NCBI RefSeq assembly: GCF_023115355.1
Contig: NZ_CP096021.1
Location: 248,001-312,000 of the forward strand
DNA from: Halocatena salina
GTDB taxonomy: Archaea > Halobacteriota > Halobacteria > Halobacteriales > Haloarculaceae
Direction: 5' to 3'
Length of the DNA stretch: 64,000 nt
Part shown: positions 3,403 to 52,507 of the stretch, piece by piece
Layout: every line of letters starts with the position of its first letter
How positions within the stretch are numbered: position 1 is the stretch's first letter
The notes under the pieces: generated by a model
The model's database searches: none
Told to the model about the DNA's origin: nothing
Seen by the model: the letters and a program-made list of their open reading frames with translations, nothing else
Translations under genes and position numbers: made by a program

Positions 3403-4542
3403 TCAGTCGTCGTGTCGCTCGAAGACTGCCTCAGCGAGCGTGTTCTTGTGACCTTCGTTCGGACCACCGGCAATCGTGAGGAGTTTCGCATCACGCAGAT
3501 ACCGCTCAACGTCGTGTTCCGTCGTGTAACCGATACCGCCTTGGAGTTGCATTGCCTCGTTAGCGTTGTCCACGGCAGCTTGTGTTGCATTAATTTTCGC
3601 CATGCTGAACTCGCGTGTGACGTCGTATCCGCGATCTGCACGGTCAGCTGCGCGGAGGGTGAGTAACCGGGCGGTATCGACGCGTTCGGCCATCTTGCCG
3701 ACTTCCCAGCTGACGCCTTGGAAGTCGCTGATGTGCTGGCCGTACTGCTCACGGCTGCTCGTGTAGGCCACCGTGTCTTCGAGGGCAGCGCGGGCGATAC
3801 CGACGCCGCGAGCGGGGACATTCACACCAGTATGTAGCTCTCCACGCTGGACGTAACCTTCGCTCTGTTCGCCGATGAGTCGATCCTCAGGCACACGAAC
3901 GTTCGAGAGGGAGACACGCGGGGACGTCACGCTGTTCGCGCCCAGCGTTTCCCACACTGTCACGACTTCGAAGTCGTCAGTCGGCACGAGAAACGCGCTG
4001 ATGTTGTGTGGCGCGTCCTCCTCGGGGCCAGTCTTCGCGTACGTGAGGACGTAGTCTGCATCGAGGAAGTTCGTCACCCACTGCTTGTGGCCGTTAAGGA
4101 CCCACTCGTCCCCGTCGCGTTCGGCGGTGGTCTCCATCTTTAGTTTATCACTCCCTGCGTTCGCCTCACTCAAGCCGAGAGCGCCGACTGTGTCGAAAGA
4201 GGCCATCTCGGGGAGGAATTCCTCGTGCTGCGCCTCGGTTCCGAAGCGCTCGACGACTTCCGCAACCCCGAGATGGAGTCCGACAGTGGCCGCCACGGAC
4301 ATTAGCCCCGCCGATAGCTCTTCGATCATCAGCGCGAGTTCAACGAGACCTTCGCCCCGTCCCCCGTACTCTTCTGGGAGCGTCACACCCATCAAACGGC
4401 GTTCGGCGAGTTCGTCGAAGATCGTTCTTGGATACTCCTCCTCTCGGTCAAGGTCTCTCGCCTTTGGTTCAATCTCCTTTTTTGTGAATTCTCGAACCTC
4501 CTCTCGAAGCGCCCGTTGATCCTCGGTCAGGTCAAATCTCAT
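3403..4542 (-). CDS. Acyl-CoA dehydrogenase
   Basis: 379 residues, the normal length for the family. It oxidises acyl-CoA thioesters to enoyl-CoA with FAD and feeds electrons to ETF in the cytoplasm. Signature 1 is seen as GLSEANAGSDK (about 133-143), and the C-terminal signature region as MQLQGGIGYTTEHDVERYLR. The segment that in MCAD-type enzymes carries the catalytic glutamate (YEGTS) reads IAGGPNEGHKN here, so the base is either displaced or replaced; I believe this variant occurs in other haloarchaeal copies. A frameshifted, truncated paralogue lies at 16192-17013. A perfect 14-base palindrome sits 38 bases upstream of the start codon. Confidence 0.95.
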   Translation of the reverse strand: MRFDLTEDQRALREEVREFTKKEIEPKARDLDREEEYPRTIFDELAERRLMGVTLPEEYGGRGEGLVELALMIEELSAGLMSVAATVGLHLGVAEVVERFGTEAQHEEFLPEMASFDTVGALGLSEANAGSDKLKMETTAERDGDEWVLNGHKQWVTNFLDADYVLTYAKTGPEEDAPHNISAFLVPTDDFEVVTVWETLGANSVTSPRVSLSNVRVPEDRLIGEQSEGYVQRGELHTGVNVPARGVGIARAALEDTVAYTSSREQYGQHISDFQGVSWEVGKMAERVDTARLLTLRAADRADRGYDVTREFSMAKINATQAAVDNANEAMQLQGGIGYTTEHDVERYLRDAKLLTIAGGPNEGHKNTLAEAVFERHDD

Positions 4543-16191: not shown

Positions 16192-17013
16192 ATGCAGTTC
16201 GCGTATACGGTTCTCAACAAGCACTTCGCAACGAGGTTCGGGAATTTGCGCAGAACGAGATCCGTCCCGATGCTATCGAACTCGATCAAAACGAGGAATA
16301 CCCGGCAGCAATCCTGACGGAACTCGGCGACCGACGGCTCACAGGTATCACGCTTCCGGAGGAATATGGGGTCGAGACGAGGGATTCGTCGAATTAGCCA
16401 TCATGACCGAGGAATTCTCCGCTGGCCTCATGTCAGTCGCCAGTTCGCTCGCGCTTCATCTCGGTGTCGCCACTGTCATTGAGCGCTTCGGAACTGACGA
16501 GCAGAAAAACGAGTTTCTCCCCGAAATGGCTATGTACGACCGGGTAGGTGCGCTAGGATTGAGTGAGTCAAACGCCGGGGCGAACAAACTGGAGATGGAA
16601 ACGACCGCCGAACGTGATGGCGAGGAGTGGATCCTCAACGGTCACAAGGAGTGGGTGACAAACTTCCTTGATGCCGATACCGTGTTGACGTATGCGAAGA
16701 CCGAGCCGGAAGAGGATGCTCCACATAACATCAGCGCGTTTCTCGTGCCGACCGACGCGTTCGAGGTCGATACCGTGTGGGAGACGCTCGGAGCCTGGAG
16801 CGTGAAATCCCCACGGGTTGCCTTAGATGATGTTCGCGTGCCCGCAGACCGGCTAGTGACGAAAACGAGGCCTACGTCCAGCGGGGAGGGATCAACATCG
16901 GTGTGAACGTCCCCGCTCGGGGCGTTGGAATCGCGCGCGCAGCATTTAATGATACAGTCGCGTATACGGACTGGCCGAATCTCGTACGCGCTCGGTGCTC
17001 AGTGTCGGAATAA
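16192..17013 (+). pseudogene. Frameshifted and truncated acyl-CoA dehydrogenase
   Basis: Starts at ATG 16192 (MQFAYT), loses frame almost at once, then reads ALRNEVREFAQNEIRPDAIE, a one-base loss in the EEYGG(R)DEG loop, ELAIMTEEFSAGLMSVASSL, GALGLSESNAGANKLEMETT, and after another shift AYVQRGGINIGVNVPARGVG. Homology to the intact enzyme at 3403-4542 then stops at the DTVAYT position, and the C-terminal third of the enzyme, including the active-site region, is absent. The copies differ at many positions, so this is an older paralogue and not a recent duplicate. Confidence 0.9.
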
Positions 17014-34339: not shown

Positions 34340-35022
34340 TTTGAACCCGAGACAGCCAGACCGGCTGGATGGCACCACGGCCGAGCCGACGCCGTATACG
34401 GTGGTGTACACGGAAAACAAGCTCCGGTTTCGCTACTACGAGGCGCGCGAGCGCCACGGGGAGCAGACCGCCCCAGTGTGTCCACCTACGCACTCATCGA
34501 CATGCCCGCTGTTCTCGACCTCTGTCGTGATCGGAGCGTGATCGGCCAGTTCCTTGATAAGGGATTCGATGTCTACCTCATCGGCTGGGGTTCACCCGGT
34601 GAGCCACTCCACTATGTCACCGTTGAGCGCGATGTACGTGGCTCTCTTCCCGGAGAAAGTGGTGGCGCTGGGGTTAAGTCCGCCGCTCCATTTCGCTGTT
34701 GAGAGCGGACTGTTCGACGTACGGGAGATCGCCGAGCGCCACGATCCCCAGCGTAGACGCCTTTGGCACTGTTCCAGCGGAGCTACTCGATCTCGGATTC
34801 TCCTTGCGCAAGCCGATCTCGAAACGTGACCATGCCGGTGACACTGGTTCTCAGCACGAATGACGCGCCCATCCCACACGCAACGAGCCGTCTCTTCCTT
34901 GATACTGTTCTGAGCGATGACACCACTATCTTCGAGTTCCCGACCGGCCATGTCGGCACACTGGTCGGTGCATCTGCCCACGCCGCGTGGCATCAGAGAG
35001 TCGACCCCACGTCCGCAAGCTG
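34340..35022 (+). pseudogene. Relic of a poly(3-hydroxyalkanoate) synthase (PhaC-type)
   Basis: Pieces in order: EPTPYTVVYTENKLRFRYYE, then (shifted) VSTYALIDMPAVLDLCRDRS, VIGQFLDKGFDVYLIGWGSP, a deletion that removes the region with the catalytic cysteine, (shifted) LSAMYVALFPEKVVALGLSP, and (shifted) VTLVLSTNDAPIPHATSRLF, DTTIFEFPTGHVG with the active-site histidine. This is the order of class III PhaC. At least four shifts and the internal loss make it nonfunctional. A second relic with different missing parts is at 51370-51785. Confidence 0.78.
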
Positions 35023-35440
35023 CGTCGGCACGCTACCGAACACGACTGGACGGTGATCCGCACCGAGCTGGCCACGATGTTGTTTTCGGACTGGCGGACG
35101 TTCACATACCCATCGATCATACGTACAGTCGGTCGATTCGTCCTTCCCCGACCAGCGGTCCCTTCTGATGTATGGATCGCGCTCGATATGGTCTGTAAGT
35201 ACGACGGACCGGCTCGGACTGATCGACCAGCCGACGTTCGTCTTCGATGGAACGCGCGACCCCTACTTCACGGAACTAATCCTCCGAGAAACCGCCGAGG
35301 AGATCCCAAACGCGACCCTTTCGCTCGCCCACGGGGCAAAACATGGCGCCTTTCACGAACGAAAGTGGTCGTTCGATGCGCAGGTGACCATCTTCTTGAA
35401 CGATCATAGCGTCACTCGCTTTCCACAACTGCGCGAGCGT
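35023..35440 (+). pseudogene. Relic of an alpha/beta hydrolase
   Basis: Two frames are needed: FSDWRTFTYPSIIRTVGRFV, VPSDVWIALDMV, then (shifted) LGLIDQPTFVFDGTRDPYFT and NATLSLAHGAKHGAFHERKW. The FDGTRDPYF and LAHGAKHGAF segments carry the usual acid and histidine of the alpha/beta hydrolase triad. The N-terminal half with the nucleophile is absent. It is a separate gene from the PhaC relic before it. Confidence 0.6.
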
Positions 35441-35496
35441 CACACGGAGCGATCGCAGCCCGGCCGCTTATTCACATCGCATTCTTTGCTCCGCCT

Positions 35497-36081
35497 ATGG
35501 TCGATGTCGATAAACGTGTGATCGGAGAGGTCACGGATCGCAGCCAAAATGTGCTGTTCAGGGAGCTCCTATCGATGATTGAGCGGTCACACCCTGAAAC
35601 GGCCGGTATCACCAGGCAAACGCTCGACGCCTACGCCCGCGAATTCGGCGAGGCAACAGCCGTCGCGTTCACCCCCCAAGAACTGCGCGACACGGTCGAT
35701 GAGCGACTCGCCGACACCGACGTGTGGATCGATACGAAAACGGTCTATTCCCTTAAGGACCGTATCAGCGTGTACCCCGCGCGCTGGCACGACGTACTCG
35801 GTGGCACCGTCGATATCCCCGCCTACATCCGGTTCATCGAAGACGAAGTGGACGGAAACGACACCGATCTCACGAGGGCAGATCCGGGCGATGGCATCCA
35901 CGAACAGGACCTTCTCGATCTCGTCGCTATCATCGGACGCACGGACAGAAAAACGGTAAAAACCCGGCTTGAACAGCTCCGCGACCAGGGCGACATCGCC
36001 GAAGGAGCCGACCAGCACCCCGATGCCCGCGTGTACCTACGCGAACGAACCGACCGACGCGATCCGGCGCTCGATACGTGA
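35497..36081 (+). CDS. Hypothetical acidic protein with a possible C-terminal winged helix
   Basis: 194 residues, no signal peptide or membrane segment. The N-terminal 60 residues are helical (RELLSMIERSHPETAGITRQ), the middle reads TVYSLKDRISVYPARWHDVL, and the C-terminus (EQDLLDLVAIIGRTDRKTVK, TRLEQLRDQGDIAEG) resembles a winged helix that joins a regulatory helix to a wing. The frame is clean, with haloarchaeal amino-acid bias, so I believe it is a real gene. No family recognised. It lies directly after the hydrolase relic on the same strand. Confidence 0.65.
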   Translation: MVDVDKRVIGEVTDRSQNVLFRELLSMIERSHPETAGITRQTLDAYAREFGEATAVAFTPQELRDTVDERLADTDVWIDTKTVYSLKDRISVYPARWHDVLGGTVDIPAYIRFIEDEVDGNDTDLTRADPGDGIHEQDLLDLVAIIGRTDRKTVKTRLEQLRDQGDIAEGADQHPDARVYLRERTDRRDPALDT

Positions 36082-36803: not shown

Positions 36804-38219
36804 TTAGAGAATAATACTTTTCTGCTGAGTGAACTTTTCGATGCTCACCCCGAGTCCTTCGCGGCCAATGCCGGAAGCTTTCTTGCCCCCGAACGGGATA
36901 TCACCGATTCCGTGGCTCGGTTCGCCGTTGATTCGGACAGCCCCTGCGTCGAGACGCTCTGCAACGGACAGTGCTCTATCGTGATCAGCAGTGAATACGC
37001 TGCCATCGAGTGCGAGATCACTTTCGTTAGCGAGGGAAATAGCATCATCTTGATCGGATATCGTCGTTACTGGGATGACGGGACCGAACTGTTCCTCATG
37101 AATGATGCGTGCTTCGGGCGGCACGTCTGCAAGCAGCGTTGGCGTGTAGTACCGACCGTCACGCTCACCTCCACGGACGAGTGTTGCACCGTGGTCTACA
37201 GCGTCGGTGACGAGTGCCTCCACCCATTCTGCCTGCTCCTCGTCGATAAGGGGACCGAGATCGGTGTCCGTATCGAAGAGATCGTCGATAACCCAATTGG
37301 CCATTTCCTTCTCAATTCGCTCTACGAGGTCGTCATGAATCGATTCATGAGCGAGCACACGACTTACAGCTGAACAGCGCTGTCCGGCGTACTTCAATGC
37401 CCCCTTGGCGCAGGCAGCCGCTACCGTGTCGAGGTCTGCGTCGGGGAAAACGATCGCGGGCGCGTTTCCTCCGAGTTCCAAGTGGTATTCGACTAGCCCA
37501 CTCTCGCGGGCGATATGGTTGCCCGCGCCAGCGGAACCGGTCATCGTGATGGCGTTGATCCGATCGTCACTAACCAGCACGTCACCGATCTCGCTCCCAC
37601 GGCCCGGGACGTAGTTGAACCCCCCCTCGGGGAGTTCCGTCTCGTTGATGATGTCCGCAAGGATTCCTGTACTGACGGGCGTCTGGGTCGCGGATTTGAG
37701 AATGACGCTATTCCCGGCAGCGAGTGCAGGGGCAATATGGAGTGCGGGCGTCGAGAGTGGGTAGTTATAGGGTGTGATACACAACACAATCCCGATCGGT
37801 TCCGGTCTGGTAACCGCTCTCCAGCCCTTATGACTACTTGTCGTTCCTCGTCGATATTCGCCATCGAGGGCGCGAGCCTCCTCGATAGCTCGGCGAAAGC
37901 GCTCGGCGGCAGCATCCACCTCGCTTCGGGCCCCCGAAATCGGCTTCCCTGCTTCACGGACGATCGTCTCGGTGAAGTCCTCTTTTCGTTCTTCGATACC
38001 ATCTGCGATAGCAGAAAGCCATGCAACGCGTTCGGGAACGGTTGTCCTCGCCATTCGTCGTTTCACATCGTGAGCGGCTGCAAGTGCCTGCTCTGCCTGT
38101 TCTGTGCCTGCTGTACTAACCCGCGTAAGCGTTCCCCCATTTGTGAGATCCATCACCTCAATCTCTTCGTCGGTTTCTATTCGCTGTCCATCGATCAGCG
38201 GACGATCAGTGTGTCCCAT
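36804..38219 (-). CDS. NAD(P)-dependent aldehyde dehydrogenase
   Basis: 471 residues from ATG 38219 (MGHTDRPLIDGQRIETDEEI), the usual ALDH length; the upstream ATG at 38300 would add an atypical leader. It oxidises an aldehyde to the acid in the cytoplasm. Visible motifs: cofactor site ITPYNYPLSTPALHIAPALA, glycine motif TGSAGAG, catalytic glutamate in HLELGGNAPAIVFPDADLD, catalytic cysteine in KYAGQRCSAVSRVL, and EEQFGPVIPV near the C-terminus. The overall pattern is like lactaldehyde dehydrogenase or non-phosphorylating GAPDH-type enzymes; the substrate is not certain. No operon partner; flanking DNA is AT-rich. Confidence 0.95.
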   Translation of the reverse strand: MGHTDRPLIDGQRIETDEEIEVMDLTNGGTLTRVSTAGTEQAEQALAAAHDVKRRMARTTVPERVAWLSAIADGIEERKEDFTETIVREAGKPISGARSEVDAAAERFRRAIEEARALDGEYRRGTTSSHKGWRAVTRPEPIGIVLCITPYNYPLSTPALHIAPALAAGNSVILKSATQTPVSTGILADIINETELPEGGFNYVPGRGSEIGDVLVSDDRINAITMTGSAGAGNHIARESGLVEYHLELGGNAPAIVFPDADLDTVAAACAKGALKYAGQRCSAVSRVLAHESIHDDLVERIEKEMANWVIDDLFDTDTDLGPLIDEEQAEWVEALVTDAVDHGATLVRGGERDGRYYTPTLLADVPPEARIIHEEQFGPVIPVTTISDQDDAISLANESDLALDGSVFTADHDRALSVAERLDAGAVRINGEPSHGIGDIPFGGKKASGIGREGLGVSIEKFTQQKSIIL

Positions 38220-38513
38220 CGTTGCATCCCTCCATAATCTAATATACACACGAGATACAAGAGTGCGTTCGATAATCATCGCCCACTTATGTTTGAACAT
38301 ATATGTTTTATTTATAATTATGAATGTGAATTTTCTCCGGTACCAGAGACTTGTCTATTGTAGATGCCGTAGGAGGTGTAATATGATCAGCACACTACTA
38401 CACGGTGGCGCTGAGTATCCCGATCTTGGGATAGTACAACGAACGACTAATTACCCCTTAAGACGCCGCACCATTCCCATCAAGTCATAGTGATTTCCAC
38501 GTCGAAGAGATGA
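38220..38513. other. AT-rich intergenic region
   Basis: About 290 bases with a strong AT block at 38280-38335 likely holding the aldehyde dehydrogenase promoter. No gene seen. Confidence 0.4.
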
Positions 38514-38930
38514 TTACTGGCGATCCACCGGTACCGTGAACTGATAGGTTTCACCGTGGTCCACGTATGTAACTCGTTCTTCGAGACCTGCTTTCGCGAC
38601 TGCTTTCTTGGAGTCTGAGAGTGGTGATTGGAAGACTTCGTAATCGCTGTAATGAATCGGAATTGAGGTGTCCGCATCGAACAGTTCGACGGCCTCGACA
38701 CCCTGTTCCGCGTCCATCGTCAAGAGAATACCGAGAACTTTGGTCCCCCCAGATGGAGGAATGCGAGATCGATCTCCGGGTAGCGTTCTGGAATCTCTTT
38801 TGATTTATCATACATGAGTGTGTCCCCGGTGATATAGAACTGGAGGGCAGCGTTATTCCCTTCAGTGTTCTTCGCCATGCCGGGGAGGTCGCCTACGAGG
38901 CTGCTGCAGAACACGTGAAGGAGGAACACG
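38514..38930 (-). pseudogene. C-terminal relic of a metallo-beta-lactamase-fold hydrolase
   Basis: Minus-strand pieces: AALQFYITGDTLMYDKSKEI, PERYPEIDLAFLHLGG, then after a frameshift near 38745 MTMDAEQGVEAVELFDADTS, IPIHYSDYEVFQSPLSDSKK and YVDHGETYQFTVPVDRQ. The TGDT and IHYSDYEVF motifs are typical of the UlaG/RomA-like MBL branch. The N-terminal HxHxDH metal site is missing; the sequence changes to the Orc1 relic (opposite strand) at its 5' end. Confidence 0.72.
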
Positions 38931-39297
38931 TCCGCCAAGCTCAGCAACACGTAGAAAAGGGTCGGTTCAGAGAACTCGTAAACGGCGCGCCTACACAGGC
39001 AAAGACTGCGTTGCTCGCATTAACAGAACTGAGCGTCAACTCTAACGACGATTCCTTCCTGACAAGATACGTGTATGACCGGTATGAACAAATCTGTAAG
39101 CGCCCAAATATAGACATACTTTCTGTACGATACTTCCGTGACATCTTGAAAGAACAAGCGTTTCTCGGTGTGGTTACAATCGAGAAGATCAACAAGGGAA
39201 GCGCAGTCGGAATTCATCTTCAGATTGATTGAAGACCTTCAGATCGTTCGTGAAACGATTGTTGAGGACGACCGAATGCAGAATTGGGATCACAGGT
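38885..39297 (+). pseudogene. C-terminal relic of an Orc1/Cdc6 replication initiator
   Basis: Reads VRQAQQHVEKGRFRELVNGA, PTQAKTALLALTELSVNSND, YDRYEQICKRPNIDILSVRY, FRDILKEQAFLGVVTIEKIN and, after a frameshift near 39228, LIEDLQIVRETIVEDDRMQN. This is the winged-helix C-terminal domain that binds origin repeats in haloarchaeal Orc1/Cdc6 proteins. The AAA+ ATPase part is missing entirely. Its presence fits a plasmid-derived history. No origin repeats were recognised nearby. Confidence 0.8.
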
Positions 39298-39460
39298 AGA
39301 CCACTATTGAGTTGCGAGACAAGTTCGAAGAGTTAATCGGCGCAATGCGCGCCGGTCGCTACGACTACATCGTTATCTGGAAATTTTGAGATTAGCCCGC
39401 TTGGCTTCGACGCATTAGAAATTCTTCGAGGCTGCCGAAGCATTGGAGACAGTCATCGCC
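39298..39460 (+). pseudogene. Relic of a serine recombinase (resolvase)
   Basis: Reads ELRDKFEELIGAMRAGRYDY, IVIWKF, stop, then one base out of phase RLARLAST and FFEAAEALET. In resolvases this stretch (YD.VVVWK..RL.R) carries the conserved arginines of the catalytic domain. The N-terminal serine and the DNA-binding domain are absent. It joins the Orc1 relic directly to the truncated TrkH. Confidence 0.6.
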
Positions 39461-39465
39461 ATGCG

Positions 39466-40299
39466 ATGACGGGCGTTGCGACGGGCGGATTCGTCGTTAC
39501 GGCCGACGGAATCGCGGCGTACAACTCGATGCTGATCGAAGCTGTGGCCATCCCATTCATGCTGCTCGGCGCGATCTCGTTCGCGGTCCACTACTACCTT
39601 CTGCAGGGCGACGTCGACCTGCTCTGGGATGACGCCCAGACCCGATGGCTGTTCGCACTTACGGGTGTCGGAACCGTCATCGTCGGAGGAATTCTGCTAG
39701 CGACCTATCCGTCACTGGATGCCGCCCGATACGGCGCGTTTCAGTTGATCTCCGCACTGACCTGTACCGGTTTCCAGACAGATACGGGGCTCGGTGATCG
39801 ATGGCCGGTGGCGGGACAGATCGTCGTCATGTCGGCGATGGTAATCGGTGGTGCAGCTGGTTCGACTGCCGGAGGCATCAAGCTCATTCGCGCAATCTCA
39901 CTGACGAAGGGAACGCTATACTCGGTCACAGATTACTTTTATGAGGAAGATACTCGGGACTTCGCCATCGCAGATGAGGAGGCCGACGTGACCGCCGGAC
40001 AGACCTCCACAGAATTCGATCAGGCTGCTGTCATCGGATTCCTGTGGATCGTTCTGCTCGTGGTCGTTGTGCTCGTATCGCTTATTGGGCTACCAACCGG
40101 CCAGAAAGGGTACGCGCTCGGAGACGTCCTCTTCGAGGTCGCGAGCGCACAGGGGAACGTCGGCCTGTCGGCGGGAATTACGGATTCAGGTATGCCGTCA
40201 AGTGTCAAACTTGCATTCGTGGCAAGCATGTGGATCGGCCGTTTAGAGATCATACCCATACTGGTGATGATGCGGGTGCTCATCCTGGGGTTCGAATGA
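39466..40299 (+). pseudogene. 5'-truncated TrkH-type potassium transporter
   Basis: 277 residues in a clean frame. Homology begins abruptly at HAMTGVATGGFVVT, the second pore loop of TrkH, and continues to the normal C-terminus: third pore loop SALTCTGFQTDTGLGD, GGAAGSTAGGIKLIRAISLT, fourth loop ASAQGNVGLSAGIT, and IGRLEIIPILVMMRV. The first two to four helices and pore loop one are replaced by the resolvase relic, so no complete K+ pathway can form. No TrkA-like partner is nearby. The frame itself has not decayed, so truncation may be recent, or the segment may still be expressed from the ATG at 39466. Confidence 0.82.
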
Positions 40300-40577
40300 C
40301 TATGGATGTCGAGTCACTGCCGATCATCGGCCGAACCTATCAATTCGGCGCAAATCCTATCACGACCACGCTCGTTCTCCTCGGACCGGTCATGCTTGGT
40401 GTCATCATCGTCTCCGGGCGCTCGCCGGTAACGATCATTTTGGGTATCGGTATGTACTCTCGCTCCCCGGATCGGTGGCGTATTCTTGGTGGACGGGGAC
40501 CAGGGAGGTGGACACCAAGGATGAGAGGACAAAGAGGAACCGTGGGTAACATACCGGAGATGACTCGACCTGACTAA
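40296..40577 (+). CDS. Small membrane protein overlapping the TrkH 3' end
   Basis: 93 codons starting at an ATG that overlaps the TrkH stop by 4 bases (ATGACT). Residues 1-55 look genuine: SLPIIGRTYQFGANPITTTL, VLLGPVMLGVIIVSGRSPVT, a hydrophobic pair of segments. The last 35 residues (Arg/Gly-rich: WRILGGRGPGRWTPRMRGQR) look like out-of-frame reading, so the 3' end is probably frameshifted. No family name known to me; a coupled small subunit for the transporter is a guess from position alone. Confidence 0.5.
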   Translation: MTMDVESLPIIGRTYQFGANPITTTLVLLGPVMLGVIIVSGRSPVTIILGIGMYSRSPDRWRILGGRGPGRWTPRMRGQRGTVGNIPEMTRPD

Positions 40578-41017
40578 ACGAATCTTGCTCCACAGTATAC
40601 TTGAATTGTACATATCGAGTGGCTGCGAACTCGATATCCATCCGACCGACGACCAGTTCTTATACTGACCGACTATCATCGCACTCTGGCTGGACATTAC
40701 TCCGTCCAAAATATGCGCCCTGGAGTTAGTATGAATCTGTAAACATCATTTATACCCCCATAGAACGCTCACCGGTCAGTAAGCACGTGTAGTGCGCAGT
40801 GGATTCACGTGAATAAGGATCTAAAGAAGAGGATTTCAACAGAGCCGATTGTTATTACATCAGGATCCTAAAGTGAGCTGTATACTGTTCCAGTGTTGTT
40901 GCTAGTTGGACAGAGTAGGTCGACCGAAGAGACTTTCGTCGCCGCTTAGAAAGCTATTTGCCGTGAACACTGTCTGATGAGGGCGTTATTTCCCTCTCAT
41001 ACTATCTCTCCTATGCT
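40578..41017. other. Intergenic, nothing recognised
   Basis: 440 bases between the TrkH-linked ORF and the 3' end of the DUF892 gene. No gene, RNA or strong repeat seen. Confidence 0.4.
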
Positions 41018-41512
41018 CTACTCCGATGGAAGCTGTCCGTAGTCAAATTCCTCACCAATTGTAGAGAGTTTCTCGAGAGCGTCTTGTTCTTCTCTGAGAT
41101 TTTGTTCGAGCGTATCGGCAACGTCGTCCATCCCAAGTTGGTCGGCCAGGGGAATGAGATTACCGTACATTGCAATCTCGTAGTGCTCTGATTTCTGTCC
41201 GGCCGCGATATTGAATCGGTCAAGGACATTCTGGTCAGGGTCCTGACTGGCAAACTCGTCGTGGTCGTTGATGAGGCCCTCGACCGCGCTATCGGATTTG
41301 GTCTCAGGCGATTCACCGATTGCGTCGAAGACTGTTTCGATTCGGTTGACGTGGCCCTGGGTTTCATCGTGGTGTTCCGAGAAAGCCGAGGCGATTTCAC
41401 CCTCTGAGCTCTGATTCGCCAACTCTTCGGTCGCGTCGACCAGTTGCTGTTCCGTGTAATAGGCGTGTTTCAACCCATCCTTGAACAGGTCGTTGAGGCT
41501 GTTTGGACACAT
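41018..41512 (-). CDS. Ferritin-like DUF892 (YciE-type) protein
   Basis: 164 residues, four-helix bundle pattern of DUF892: NDLFKDGLKHAYYTEQQLVD, FSEHHDETQGHVNRIETVFD, FNIAAGQKSEHYEIAMYGNL and LEQNLREEQDALEKL. Conserved Glu/His pairs (EQQ, EHHDETQGH, KSEHYE, REEQ) fit the di-metal site of this ferritin-like group, which is induced by osmotic and oxidative stress in bacteria. Cytoplasmic; no signal peptide. An acidic unknown protein (41803-42141) on the same strand lies upstream with its own promoter region. Confidence 0.92.
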   Translation of the reverse strand: MCPNSLNDLFKDGLKHAYYTEQQLVDATEELANQSSEGEIASAFSEHHDETQGHVNRIETVFDAIGESPETKSDSAVEGLINDHDEFASQDPDQNVLDRFNIAAGQKSEHYEIAMYGNLIPLADQLGMDDVADTLEQNLREEQDALEKLSTIGEEFDYGQLPSE

Positions 41513-42141: not shown

Positions 42142-42996
42142 GGCTCAGGTGATAGTAACGACTGCCATCAGTATAAACCCCAAGTCCAACACCCATTTAG
42201 TAACCTATCGAAGACGACTCATCACTGTTTATAGGGAGGGGTACCACGTAGAGAGAACGAACTCAGCCGAAGGCTAGCTATTGCCGTCCATAGTCGTTGT
42301 CTCTCCGATTCGTGTATTCTCTTACTTACGATTGGTGTTCGTCAATCTGGCGACGTTCAGAGAAGGATTGAATGGTGAAGAGTGACAGTTTCTGAGCATC
42401 TATGCCCGGAAGAGCATCCTCAGCGGAAGTCTGAGTCTTTTCGAGCAGTTCTGACGACTGTCGATATACCTCCTATTGTATAATAGTCTCTATGCTGTGA
42501 TCCCCAGTGAGAACCTTATCTGGCCCATTTTATGCCCCACATTTTATTGGATAATTAATATATTATGCATCTCATTTAAGGTATCGTAAAACATTAGACG
42601 GTTGGCCTAGGTACCGTTTATTACTCATATTCGATGTATTCCGCGAAAATGAGTGACTGAATGCAGGGGGTGGGCTCTCTATTACTCGGTATCTGAATCA
42701 TCCCCTAGACAAGATACCAGCCGGGAAGTCGCCGGACATTCACGCTAGCTCGCCTGCGAACTCAATACGCCGGGGGAGTGCGTGAGCAACTCCACGAGAT
42801 GATGTCCTACCGGGCAACCATCGAGGAGACCTTGATAGGGAGACGATGCCCATCACTCCAGTTGCATTTTTGAATGTCCTTCGCGATGGTATTCAACACA
42901 ATGCTCAAGAGTTAGCCGACGCCTGCACTAGGAATGTCGAGGAGGAATGACTTATCACATCAGATATATTAATGATACCTTGTTCACACAGACAGT
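42142..42996. other. AT-rich intergenic region
   Basis: About 850 bases. A 34-codon frame at 42846-42950 (MPITPVAFLNVLRDGIQHNA) looks protein-like but is too short to support. Otherwise AT-rich with no RNA gene seen. Confidence 0.4.
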
Positions 42997-43374
42997 GTGG
43001 CCAAGCTCTTGGATCGCTCCCAGGAGATAAATTATTCCTACCCACCCAACGAGTTGCATCGGCTTCAAACGGCGTATGAGATGACTTCTCCCCAGAGATC
43101 CAAAGACTGGTTAATGAGTTTCAAAAGTGTTAAAGCAGATAGATATCACTCTGAAATATTTCAAGTAGATGTATCTCCAATCAGTACTCGCCAGGTGTCA
43201 CGGCTCTTGCTCTACCTTGGCCTCCCCGCGATTGGGAGTACACTTCTCAATTCATAGGCTAACGGGCGCGGTCGAGACGTCAATCGGAGGGAACTTACTC
43301 GAAGCTGCCGTCGCTATCGCGGTAATAGGTGGGTTCATCCCACTAACCATTCTATTTAATTTGCTCTCCGACTA
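42997..43374 (+). pseudogene. Frameshifted small membrane protein
   Basis: Start at GTG 42997; first frame reads LHRLQTAYEMTSPQRSKDWL, FKSVKADRYHSEIFQVDVSP, ISTRQVSRLLLYLGLPAIGS. After a shift near 43240 the second frame reads GGNLLEAAVAIAVIGGFIPL, TILFNLLSD and stops at 43374. Together they give a protein with two transmembrane helices and a cytoplasmic N-terminus. I do not recognise the family, and it could be the end of a longer gene. Confidence 0.5.
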
Positions 43375-43516
43375 GCGGTGACCGCCCAACGGTCAGTGGC
43401 GATCACCCCGTTCACCACATCAGATTGGAAGTAGGATATCTATCCTCGATAATTATCCGATAAAAATAAATTCCTCCTCTGGGATGTACTACCTTTGGGT
43501 GTTGCCGACACAGAAT

Positions 43517-43543
43517 AATAATTATTAATTATTAATTATTAAT
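43517..43543. repeat. AT-only tandem repeat (ATTAATT units)
   Basis: Three to four copies of a 7-base ATTAATT unit sit at the 3' end of the small zinc-binding ORF (stop at 43539). The length suggests slippage-prone DNA, no known function. Confidence 0.5.
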
Positions 43544-43715
43544 CCAGGCGTGGACAGTCGTCGATGCCAAAGCTATCAGGAATCGTTTGAAACGGACCAT
43601 GCTCGTCATCAACGGTTTGGGCAATGTGTTGCCGCATGGCTTGTCCAACCGCGGGTGCGCCACAGTACACGCATTTGCGCAGGGCATTGGAATCGTTTGA
43701 GGTATTCGTACCCAT
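43539..43715 (-). CDS. 58-residue CxxC protein
   Basis: ATG 43715 to TAA 43539. The product reads LRKCVYCGAPAVGQAMRQHI, then AQTVDDEHGPFQTIPDSFGI and DDCPRLD. A CxxC, a histidine (RQHI) and a late Cys suggest a zinc ribbon or mixed Cys/His site; the acidic composition is haloarchaeal. The stop codon lies inside an AT tandem repeat, so length may vary between strains. No family name known. Isolated between intergenic stretches. Confidence 0.6.
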   Translation of the reverse strand: MGTNTSNDSNALRKCVYCGAPAVGQAMRQHIAQTVDDEHGPFQTIPDSFGIDDCPRLD

Positions 43716-44124
43716 AGATGATAATGAACGGGATGATCCAAGAATGTATGTGGGGACCTCAACAGTAGTTAGTTATCTCTCATGACATTGTCCCAGCTTC
43801 ATTGTCGTCAATATAGTATTATCTCATTGGCTACCGCCACTGTGCCATGGGTGGGAAACCATTCCCTGTGGTATTCCTACGCGGGTAGCTATCGACGACG
43901 ACATTAAGTATGAATCGGCATACTGGACTGCCAGTGAATGATCGCTCGAAAGCGAGCACTTTTCGTAACCTAGAGCTAGTCAGGGTAAGACAGTCACGCG
44001 TGGCATCCAGTGTCGATAGGCTCACATGGCTGCACTCTGCTCAATCCTGCTATAAAGCCATCCATTTCACTCGTTAAGGACTAGAATTCTAGGGTTGGAG
44101 TCGTGAAGTTTCAGAAATTCAGTG
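43716..44124. other. Intergenic, nothing recognised
   Basis: About 410 bases upstream of the CxxC gene. No supportable gene or RNA seen. Confidence 0.4.
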
Positions 44125-44250
44125 ACACATATGAGAAAGAACACTCGGTTTCCATGGCCAGTTGTGCTGGAAACATTGGTCTATCACGGTGATGCCGGTC
44201 ATGGCAGCGCCAGCAGTGACGAGAAAGTCTCGACGGGTAGCATGATGTGG
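44125..44250 (-). pseudogene. Isolated Tat-type signal-peptide remnant
   Basis: Just downstream of the manganese catalase gene the minus strand reads HHATRRDFLVTAGAAMTGIT, a typical twin-arginine leader (TRRDFLV plus a hydrophobic stretch), then runs into unrelated sequence and a stop. No mature protein follows, so this is probably the start of a deleted secreted-protein gene. Confidence 0.4.
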
Positions 44251-44274
44251 ATGGTGTGTCGGGGGGTGGCCGTA

Positions 44275-51369: not shown

Positions 51370-51785
51370 TGAAGGGCCTACATAGATCAGTACATTGATA
51401 ACTGTGTCGACGTGGTTCGCGAGCGGACTGGTACGGACGATATCCACCTAGTCGGCTACTCCATGAATGCTCCACCCGTGTCATGTATGCTGCGCTCTAT
51501 CCGGAGAAGGTTGTGACATTGGAACTAAAAGAATCCGCCATCAACTTTGACGTTAAGAACGAGGGATTCGCCTTCCGGGAGGCGATCGAAGCACATGATC
51601 CAAAGGATCTCGTCGCTGTGTTCGGAAATATACCTGCTCTGGTGCTGGTAGGGTTTGTCGCGCGCACGCCGATCGAATACACCGTGATGAACCCACTGCG
51701 ACTTCGAAACAATCTAGAGAACGAGGAATTCGTCGAGCAAGCGGCGTTACGGACGTGGTGGTTCGTCAGTGGTCCTAGCATGGTT
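51370..51785 (+). pseudogene. Second relic of a PhaC-type PHA synthase
   Basis: Reads [31 protein letters not shown] (the active-site G-x-C-x-G box has become GYSMN), then (shifted) [20 protein letters not shown], then HDPKDLVAVFGNIPAL, TVMNPLRLRNNLENEEFVEQ and AALRTWW. The N-terminal third and the C-terminal histidine region are missing. The active-site cysteine is not present. It covers part of PhaC that the relic at 34340 has lost. Confidence 0.72.
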
Positions 51786-51793
51786 GGCAGTGT

Positions 51794-52507
51794 CTATTGT
51801 TCGGGGCGATCACCGACGAACCGCCATTCGTCATCTTGTGTCTCTACGTCCGACACCGCCTCTAGGCCAGGACTGATAACCTCCTGCCACCAGTCGTCAG
51901 GGTCCTCGTATGTAGCCGGGTACTCTGGAAACACGTCCGTTTCGAAATCGTCTCTTTTCGCGCTACTGCGCTTTTGAAGGTAGAGATACGCCGCCCGAAG
52001 CGCCTCCCGATTCCGTTCTCGATCGGTGGATGATCCCGGTGGGTCGAACGTTTCGATCTCTTCAATAGTGGGTTCGTCGGTAATCTCCGGTCCTCTCGGT
52101 TCCTCGGCGGGCGCTTGGAGGCTTTCTGTCGGATTCTCTTCTTGTCGCGGGGTCGTCTCGGATCCAGTCGCTGCCGTCGCCTGCGCTTCGACGTCAGTTT
52201 CGACTTCAGACTCCGAAATAAGGAGATCGTCCTCGACCTCGGATGCAAGTGTCCAGACAGTTCCGCGCGACCTCTCTTCGCTTGTGAGCAGGCCACGCTC
52301 GTAGAGATCGTCGAGACGGTCATTGAGAACAGTGTGATGGATTGGCAGCTCGTCTGCAACGTCTGTCACCAGCAGATTCCTATCGCCGCTCCGAGCGAAC
52401 ACCGAAAGGATCTCTTCGTCGCTCACCTGCGGTTCGCGGTTGGGATCTCCCATACTGTGCTCTATGAGTTCTGTCGTGTTGAACCCCCCGCTGTGTGGTG
52501 CGCTCAT
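51794..52507 (-). CDS. Winged-helix DNA-binding protein with acidic linker
   Basis: 237 residues (or 219 from the ATG at 52453). Residues about 27-90 form a winged helix: SDEEILSVFARSGDRNLLVT, DVADELPIHHTVLNDRLDDL, YERGLLTSEERSRGTVWTLA. A long acidic, Thr/Pro/Glu-rich linker (about 95-165) follows, then a C-terminal domain (REALRAAYLYLQKRSSAKRD; YEDPDDWWQEVISPGLEAVS). The layout occurs in plasmid- and virus-linked haloarchaeal proteins, but I know no function. It is the downstream member of a same-strand pair with the 98-residue gene and faces the PHA-synthase relic. Confidence 0.75.
   Translation of the reverse strand: MSAPHSGGFNTTELIEHSMGDPNREPQVSDEEILSVFARSGDRNLLVTDVADELPIHHTVLNDRLDDLYERGLLTSEERSRGTVWTLASEVEDDLLISESEVETDVEAQATAATGSETTPRQEENPTESLQAPAEEPRGPEITDEPTIEEIETFDPPGSSTDRERNREALRAAYLYLQKRSSAKRDDFETDVFPEYPATYEDPDDWWQEVISPGLEAVSDVETQDDEWRFVGDRPEQ

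Follow-up and report, generated by a model that had tools for sequence, protein, structure and literature searches.

The window, by which we mean the whole 64,000-nucleotide stretch analyzed (G000:C3:248001-312000), lies on C3, a 415-kb plasmid-like contig, probably a secondary replicon, of a 4.0-Mb Halocatena genome. Between two full-length genes, encoding an aldehyde dehydrogenase (36804-38300) and a DUF892 ferritin-like protein (41018-41512), we found four gene remnants one after another at positions 38514-40299 of the window, those of an MBL hydrolase, a pNRC200-type Orc4, a serine resolvase, and TrkH. The debris reaches 40846, the position of an orphan IS5-type right end. In window coordinates, the features are as follows:

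38514-38865, minus strand: remnant of an MBL-fold hydrolase that keeps about residues 171-287 of 289, with one frameshift
38866-38867: joint 1, between MBL (to 38865) and Orc (from 38868); 2 nt fitting neither parent
38868-39299, plus strand: Orc1/Cdc6 remnant of the Orc4 type (Cdc6_C, E = 9e-15), residues 264-384 and 386-407 of 410
39300-39313: Orc 3' flank and joint 2, between this flank and the resolvase, at about 39311-39313
39314-39462, plus strand: remnant of a serine resolvase with a broken frame, about residues 56-106 of 244 being kept
39459-39462: joint 3, between the resolvase and TrkH; up to 4 nt (CCAT) common to both parents
39459-40299, plus strand: C-terminal half of TrkH (PF02386, E = 1e-39), covering positions 195-492 of the 502 in the profile
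40296-40577, plus strand: frameshifted copy of a small trkH partner gene, overlapping trkH by 4 nt, its frame lost near 40450
40770-40846, plus strand: orphan IS5-type right end, about 190 nt past the trkH partner gene, with the terminal repeat at 40831-40846

The first-pass annotation had described this region as a mosaic of four truncated genes, and the MBL, Orc, resolvase, and TrkH pieces were each confirmed against intact homologues, all of them well above chance level in homology searches. Each piece corresponds to part of an intact homologue and has sharp ends, as pseudogene debris would. Besides truncation, we found inactivating lesions in the MBL, Orc, and resolvase pieces and in the trkH partner gene; none was seen in TrkH itself.

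The MBL piece shares 83% DNA identity over 38521-38865 (minus strand) with the intact MBL gene (289 aa) of Haladaptatus halobius, which is annotated at full length there and in Natrinema zhouii, and a DNA search found four plasmid records matching the piece at 76-83%. The first 170 residues are gone, and what remains is split over two frames by a 1-nt gap relative to the intact genes. The earlier description of a hydrolase without its N-terminus is thus borne out, with residues 171-287 of 289 kept and a frame lesion in addition. Neither of the two MBL open reading frames matched Pfam, and one of them weakly matched a metal-dependent hydrolase in NCBIfam (3e-6, below the cutoff). The missing part was not found in the own assembly, where the sole other match at E ≤ 1e-5 was a different MBL with 30% identity.

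The Orc remnant keeps the winged-helix domain and part of the lid, while the AAA+ core is gone and a 5-nt gap after residue 384, near the 3' end, disrupts the reading frame. An Orc1 lacking its ATPase, as first described, is therefore what the piece is, with the C-terminal third (Cdc6_C) kept and the frame broken as well. Its top DNA match was in Natronococcus sp. AD-5 (80%). In its C-terminal part, it resembles the Orc4 of pNRC200-type haloarchaeal plasmids, with 76% DNA and 82% protein identity to orc4 of NRC-1 pNRC200, but unlike that protein it has no AAA+ ATPase part and no continuous frame. A complete gene of the Orc4 type is present in a relative (G005; 91% to NRC-1 Orc4). The alignments began at 38868-38870 in all 26 plasmid records with an Orc match and in 12 of the 18 non-own matches of the family search, the remaining six being the H. 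pleomorpha piece, one MBL match, and four shorter Orc matches. Within the own assembly, no other Orc exceeded 53% identity to the Orc4 type, and the parent replicon type was not seen there. Because no Orc in the assembly exceeds this value, it is plausible that the source replicon has been lost, and a lost plasmid, which had been invoked for the mosaic, may be kept in this role as the source of the Orc piece.

The resolvase fragment reported between Orc and TrkH is indeed there and amounts to about 50 residues of a serine resolvase. It is 84% identical in DNA (126/150) to a complete 244-aa serine resolvase gene in G148. The intact parent gene matches Pfam Resolvase at 5e-27, and the remnant alone, read as a single frame with X at stops, gave no Pfam match.

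TrkH is open for 277 codons from 39466, and the portion lost would, going by the architecture of TrkH, comprise its first pore repeat together with the beginning of the next one. Among the matches listed, the top family DNA matches start at 39459. The highest protein identity was 56% (G192), and 7 of 392 genomes, the own one included, passed E ≤ 1e-80 with the TrkH protein. In the listed part of an alignment with 14 intact TrkH proteins, the later motifs are retained in the window piece, and its codon-position differences resemble those among intact genes. An initial count found 7 of 87 conserved columns changed, compared with 0 to 2 in each of the 14 intact proteins. Excess decay was nevertheless dropped as an interpretation, as the count against lone lineages gave 31/120 for the window and 30/120 for the intact lone-lineage L064 (28/120 for L066; 0 to 7 changes on 87-99 columns for the other lone-lineage controls).

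The mosaic had been drawn as far as 40577. TrkH ends at 40299, and the rest is the frameshifted small partner gene at 40296-40577, whose intact counterpart, a gene of 67 aa in Halorussus limi, has the same 4-nt overlap with trkH. Of the claim that TrkH lacks its first helices and is otherwise undamaged, the open TrkH frame stands, but the partner gene is frameshifted. A fusion protein across joint 3 was considered and rejected; the TrkH frame is open for 43 codons upstream, but it is neither the resolvase frame nor the Orc frame. A second truncated TrkH, comprising about 105 N-terminal residues, lies on the same contig at C3:51349-51792 (minus strand), after a permease frame that looks full length and a TrkA-like frame interrupted by an in-frame stop, both named after similar annotated loci. 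In a search of contig C3 for the lost N-terminal half, this remnant (C3:51460-51834, minus strand) was rejected. It is closest to L034 (61%; L064, 41%) and so to another TrkH subfamily than the window piece, for which L064 (54-56%) is a nearer relative than L034 (49%); moreover, the two pieces together would leave a gap of about 110 residues.

The joints were positioned by aligning intact parents beside the window, and the breaks relative to relatives are sharp at all three. At joint 2, the Orc 3' flank extends to about 39310 (only NRC-1 records match that far) and the resolvase begins at 39314, which gives the parental overlap to within a few nucleotides; it is 0 nt at joint 1 and up to 4 nt at joint 3, and none exceeds about 4 nt. 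Some 445 nt separate joint 1 from joint 2 and some 148 nt joint 2 from joint 3, which does not agree with the proposal that recombination had recurred at one point. A search for the junctions in related plasmids, which had been suggested as a check, supported the sharp parental breaks but found joints 1 and 3 in none of 51 plasmid records with a match, and a plasmid DNA search with 39280-39480 gave no match. Joint 1 was also found nowhere else in 7 genus genomes or in 146 family genomes, a set that includes the own one and in which 3 candidates per genome were scored, nor was joint 3 in the same sets (own included, 2 to 3 candidates scored each, among the matches listed). Joint 2 occurs in 2 of 392 order genomes, the own one and that of H. 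pleomorpha (G004), and hence in 2 of the 7 genus genomes, own included. A 24-nt match to the joint-2 region in G362, considered as an IS end, was taken as chance; when 382 genomes were scanned with 2 mismatches allowed, 5 had a match, including the own genome and H. pleomorpha, against at least 6 matches with the reversed control, and no orc or resolvase was seen by eye in a six-frame translation of the G362 match.

The Orc-resolvase stretch in H. pleomorpha is identical to that of the window at 253 of 297 positions (85%), and its lesions differ, as it has stop codons of its own and is without the 5-nt gap. Its 5' side is occupied by a C-terminal remnant of Cas3 (PF22590, E = 3e-11):

L005:1192-1825 (H. 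pleomorpha): Cas3 C-terminal remnant and Orc-resolvase debris, head-on

Genes near this Cas3 remnant read by eye like ComEC-type MBL proteins. The part of Orc found at joint 1 of the window is missing from H. pleomorpha. Its resolvase extends about 9 nt past the position of joint 3 and is followed by 21 nt matching the 3' end of its own gene (19/21), an internal deletion. The resolvase breaks within about 10 nt in both species, not at the same base and with different far-side DNA, and this speaks in favor of a single point. As H. pleomorpha shares joint 2 and retains the 3' end of the resolvase, joint 2 is older than joint 3, in keeping with the earlier view that the recombination was successive; as it has lost the Orc part at joint 1, only joint 3 can be dated relative to joint 2. 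The absence of TrkH decay suggests that TrkH was perhaps joined last.

With 3 mismatches allowed, no left end to go with the orphan IS5-type end was found in the window. On C3, the repeat does not recur (2 mismatches allowed), and nothing matches the L008 transposase at E ≤ 1e-5. In 16 of the 51 plasmid records, the best place was a matching end, and one further record has the end joined with an MBL match. Among the six plasmid records inspected, L120 carries both terminal repeats exactly, with an annotated IS5 transposase between them, L119 has both repeats (one mismatch) and L118 a weak left one (three mismatches); L117, L121, and L122 have the right repeat only, within the stretch examined. 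L008, from a Halocatena genome, has both repeats (one mismatch) and a DDE transposase. The same IS5-type end is found on many haloarchaeal plasmids, mostly in unannotated places and sometimes as both ends with a transposase.

Elsewhere in the window, fragments at 34400-35500 and 51483-51977 are presumably more debris, reading, by their motifs, like PHA synthase or alpha-beta hydrolase, and the Pfam matches at 34.8-35.4 kb were below the cutoff. The stop-read-through frames of 42150-44272 gave one Pfam match, also below the cutoff. A short frame at 16403-16906 resembles by eye part of an acyl-CoA dehydrogenase-like frame at 3403-4542.

We consider it very likely that, in what is left of a decaying replicon, the pieces of the cluster were joined and cut back step by step, using hardly any homology or none. 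In the step shown by the sharing with H. pleomorpha, an Orc4-type initiator gene, probably from a replicon since lost, was joined just past its stop to an internal part of a serine resolvase gene. This took place ahead of the divergence of the two Halocatena copies, or ahead of the transfer of one to the other. In the lineage of the window, the Orc gene would have been cut after its ATPase part and joined to a truncated MBL gene, and in H. pleomorpha cut further and joined instead to a Cas3 gene, likewise truncated. The trkH fragment and the small partner gene were joined to the resolvase piece later than the first step, as the dating of joint 3 shows; in H. pleomorpha, the resolvase lost its middle instead. 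The IS5-type end shows that a mobile element was present here too, most of which has been deleted. Illegitimate or microhomology-mediated joining, together with deletion-coupled insertion, would account for the joints better than site-specific recombination.

A site-specific recombinase, perhaps the resolvase itself, building the mosaic through repeated reactions at one site is a very unlikely source of these joints, despite having been proposed in the first-pass annotation and despite the resolvase fragment among the pieces. The spacing of the joints and their short overlaps speak against it, and the resolvase is itself truncated, without its N-terminal part from joint 2 onward. A repeat search (9-nt seed, shorter cores judged by eye) found no core of at least 12 nt common to all three joints, as repeated site-specific recombination would leave. 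What can be said for a recombinase is the proximity of the resolvase breaks in the two Halocatena species and a 12-nt near-repeat, 11/12 identical and direct, at 38869-38880 (joint 1) and 39453-39464 (joint 3); when triples of points were drawn at random from the region, only 1 in 400 showed such a pair, skipped draws included. The near-repeat is, however, absent from joint 2, and since both copies are native to the parent genes, Orc and resolvase, no insertion created them. It may have had a role in the joining at joints 1 and 3, and together with the nearby break in H. pleomorpha it is the main loose end, noticed post hoc. It is conceivable, if improbable, that the Orc-resolvase fragment has been a long-lived hot spot of deletion-coupled insertion in Halocatena replicons, where pieces of genes were broken and joined again and again, with short near-repeats helping to define the spot, and the same low weight is given to its accounting for MBL and TrkH in one species and for Cas3 and the internal resolvase deletion in the other.

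Insertion sequences could have made the joints if insertions were followed by adjacent deletions that removed the missing halves. The orphan right end close to the trkH partner gene speaks for this, as do the copies elsewhere in haloarchaea that have kept both ends (L120, L119, and L008), but a scan for the terminal repeat of this element, and of this element only, at up to 3 mismatches found it at none of the three joints. We regard insertion sequences as a possible though unlikely cause, and one partly compatible with stepwise joining. An assembly error that joined unrelated contigs would explain why joints 1 and 3 appear in no other genome or plasmid record searched. For the middle joint, such an artefact is excluded by its presence in the independent H. 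pleomorpha assembly; moreover, the MBL, Orc, and resolvase pieces bear frame lesions of their own, like old debris, and their counterparts, the halves of matching identity, were not found elsewhere in the own assembly, all of which leaves an error extremely improbable. As to function, the C-terminal half of TrkH could in principle be a retained, expressed protein with a start supplied by the upstream mosaic. The long open frame with its later motifs and the near-equal counts of conserved-column deviations (31 and 30 of 120) agree with this, and given no excess decay the piece might still be in use. Yet the first part of the protein, before profile position 195 of 502, is missing and the partner gene is frameshifted, and we hold such retention to be very doubtful.

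Stepwise joining with little homology has precedents in haloarchaea. A study of Haloquadratum walsbyi (PMC3119063) describes deletion-coupled insertions, deletions at direct repeats of 4-20 bp, and cdc6 pseudogenes. The likeness to the window lies in exact joints between unrelated DNA that lack a target motif, in short repeats at deletions, and in many pseudogenes, including cdc6 homologues; there, however, two strains were compared base by base, whereas here the events are deduced from parents and no empty-site relative was found. Its authors think that their repeat-mediated deletions arise independently of double-strand breaks, so that more than one pathway may have made the joints here. Microhomology-mediated end joining has been reported in Haloferax volcanii, where deletions were likewise attributed to short homologies but were seen in mutants with enhanced CRISPR self-targeting (PMC7521656). 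The excerpts of PMC3528665 and PMC10544981 hold nothing decisive for this locus.

Judged from its sequence, the cluster is real but ordinary pseudogene debris, a case of common genome decay and no new system, produced by at least three separate breakages, one of them predating another. We assign the mosaic no protein function. Automatic annotation might report a replication initiator, a resolvase, and a potassium transporter at this place, all of them incomplete. Beyond annotation, the significance is small: the Orc-resolvase joint common to both species is a minor dated marker of how Halocatena replicons decay, and the remnants as a group illustrate that haloarchaeal DNA can be joined at near-zero homology.
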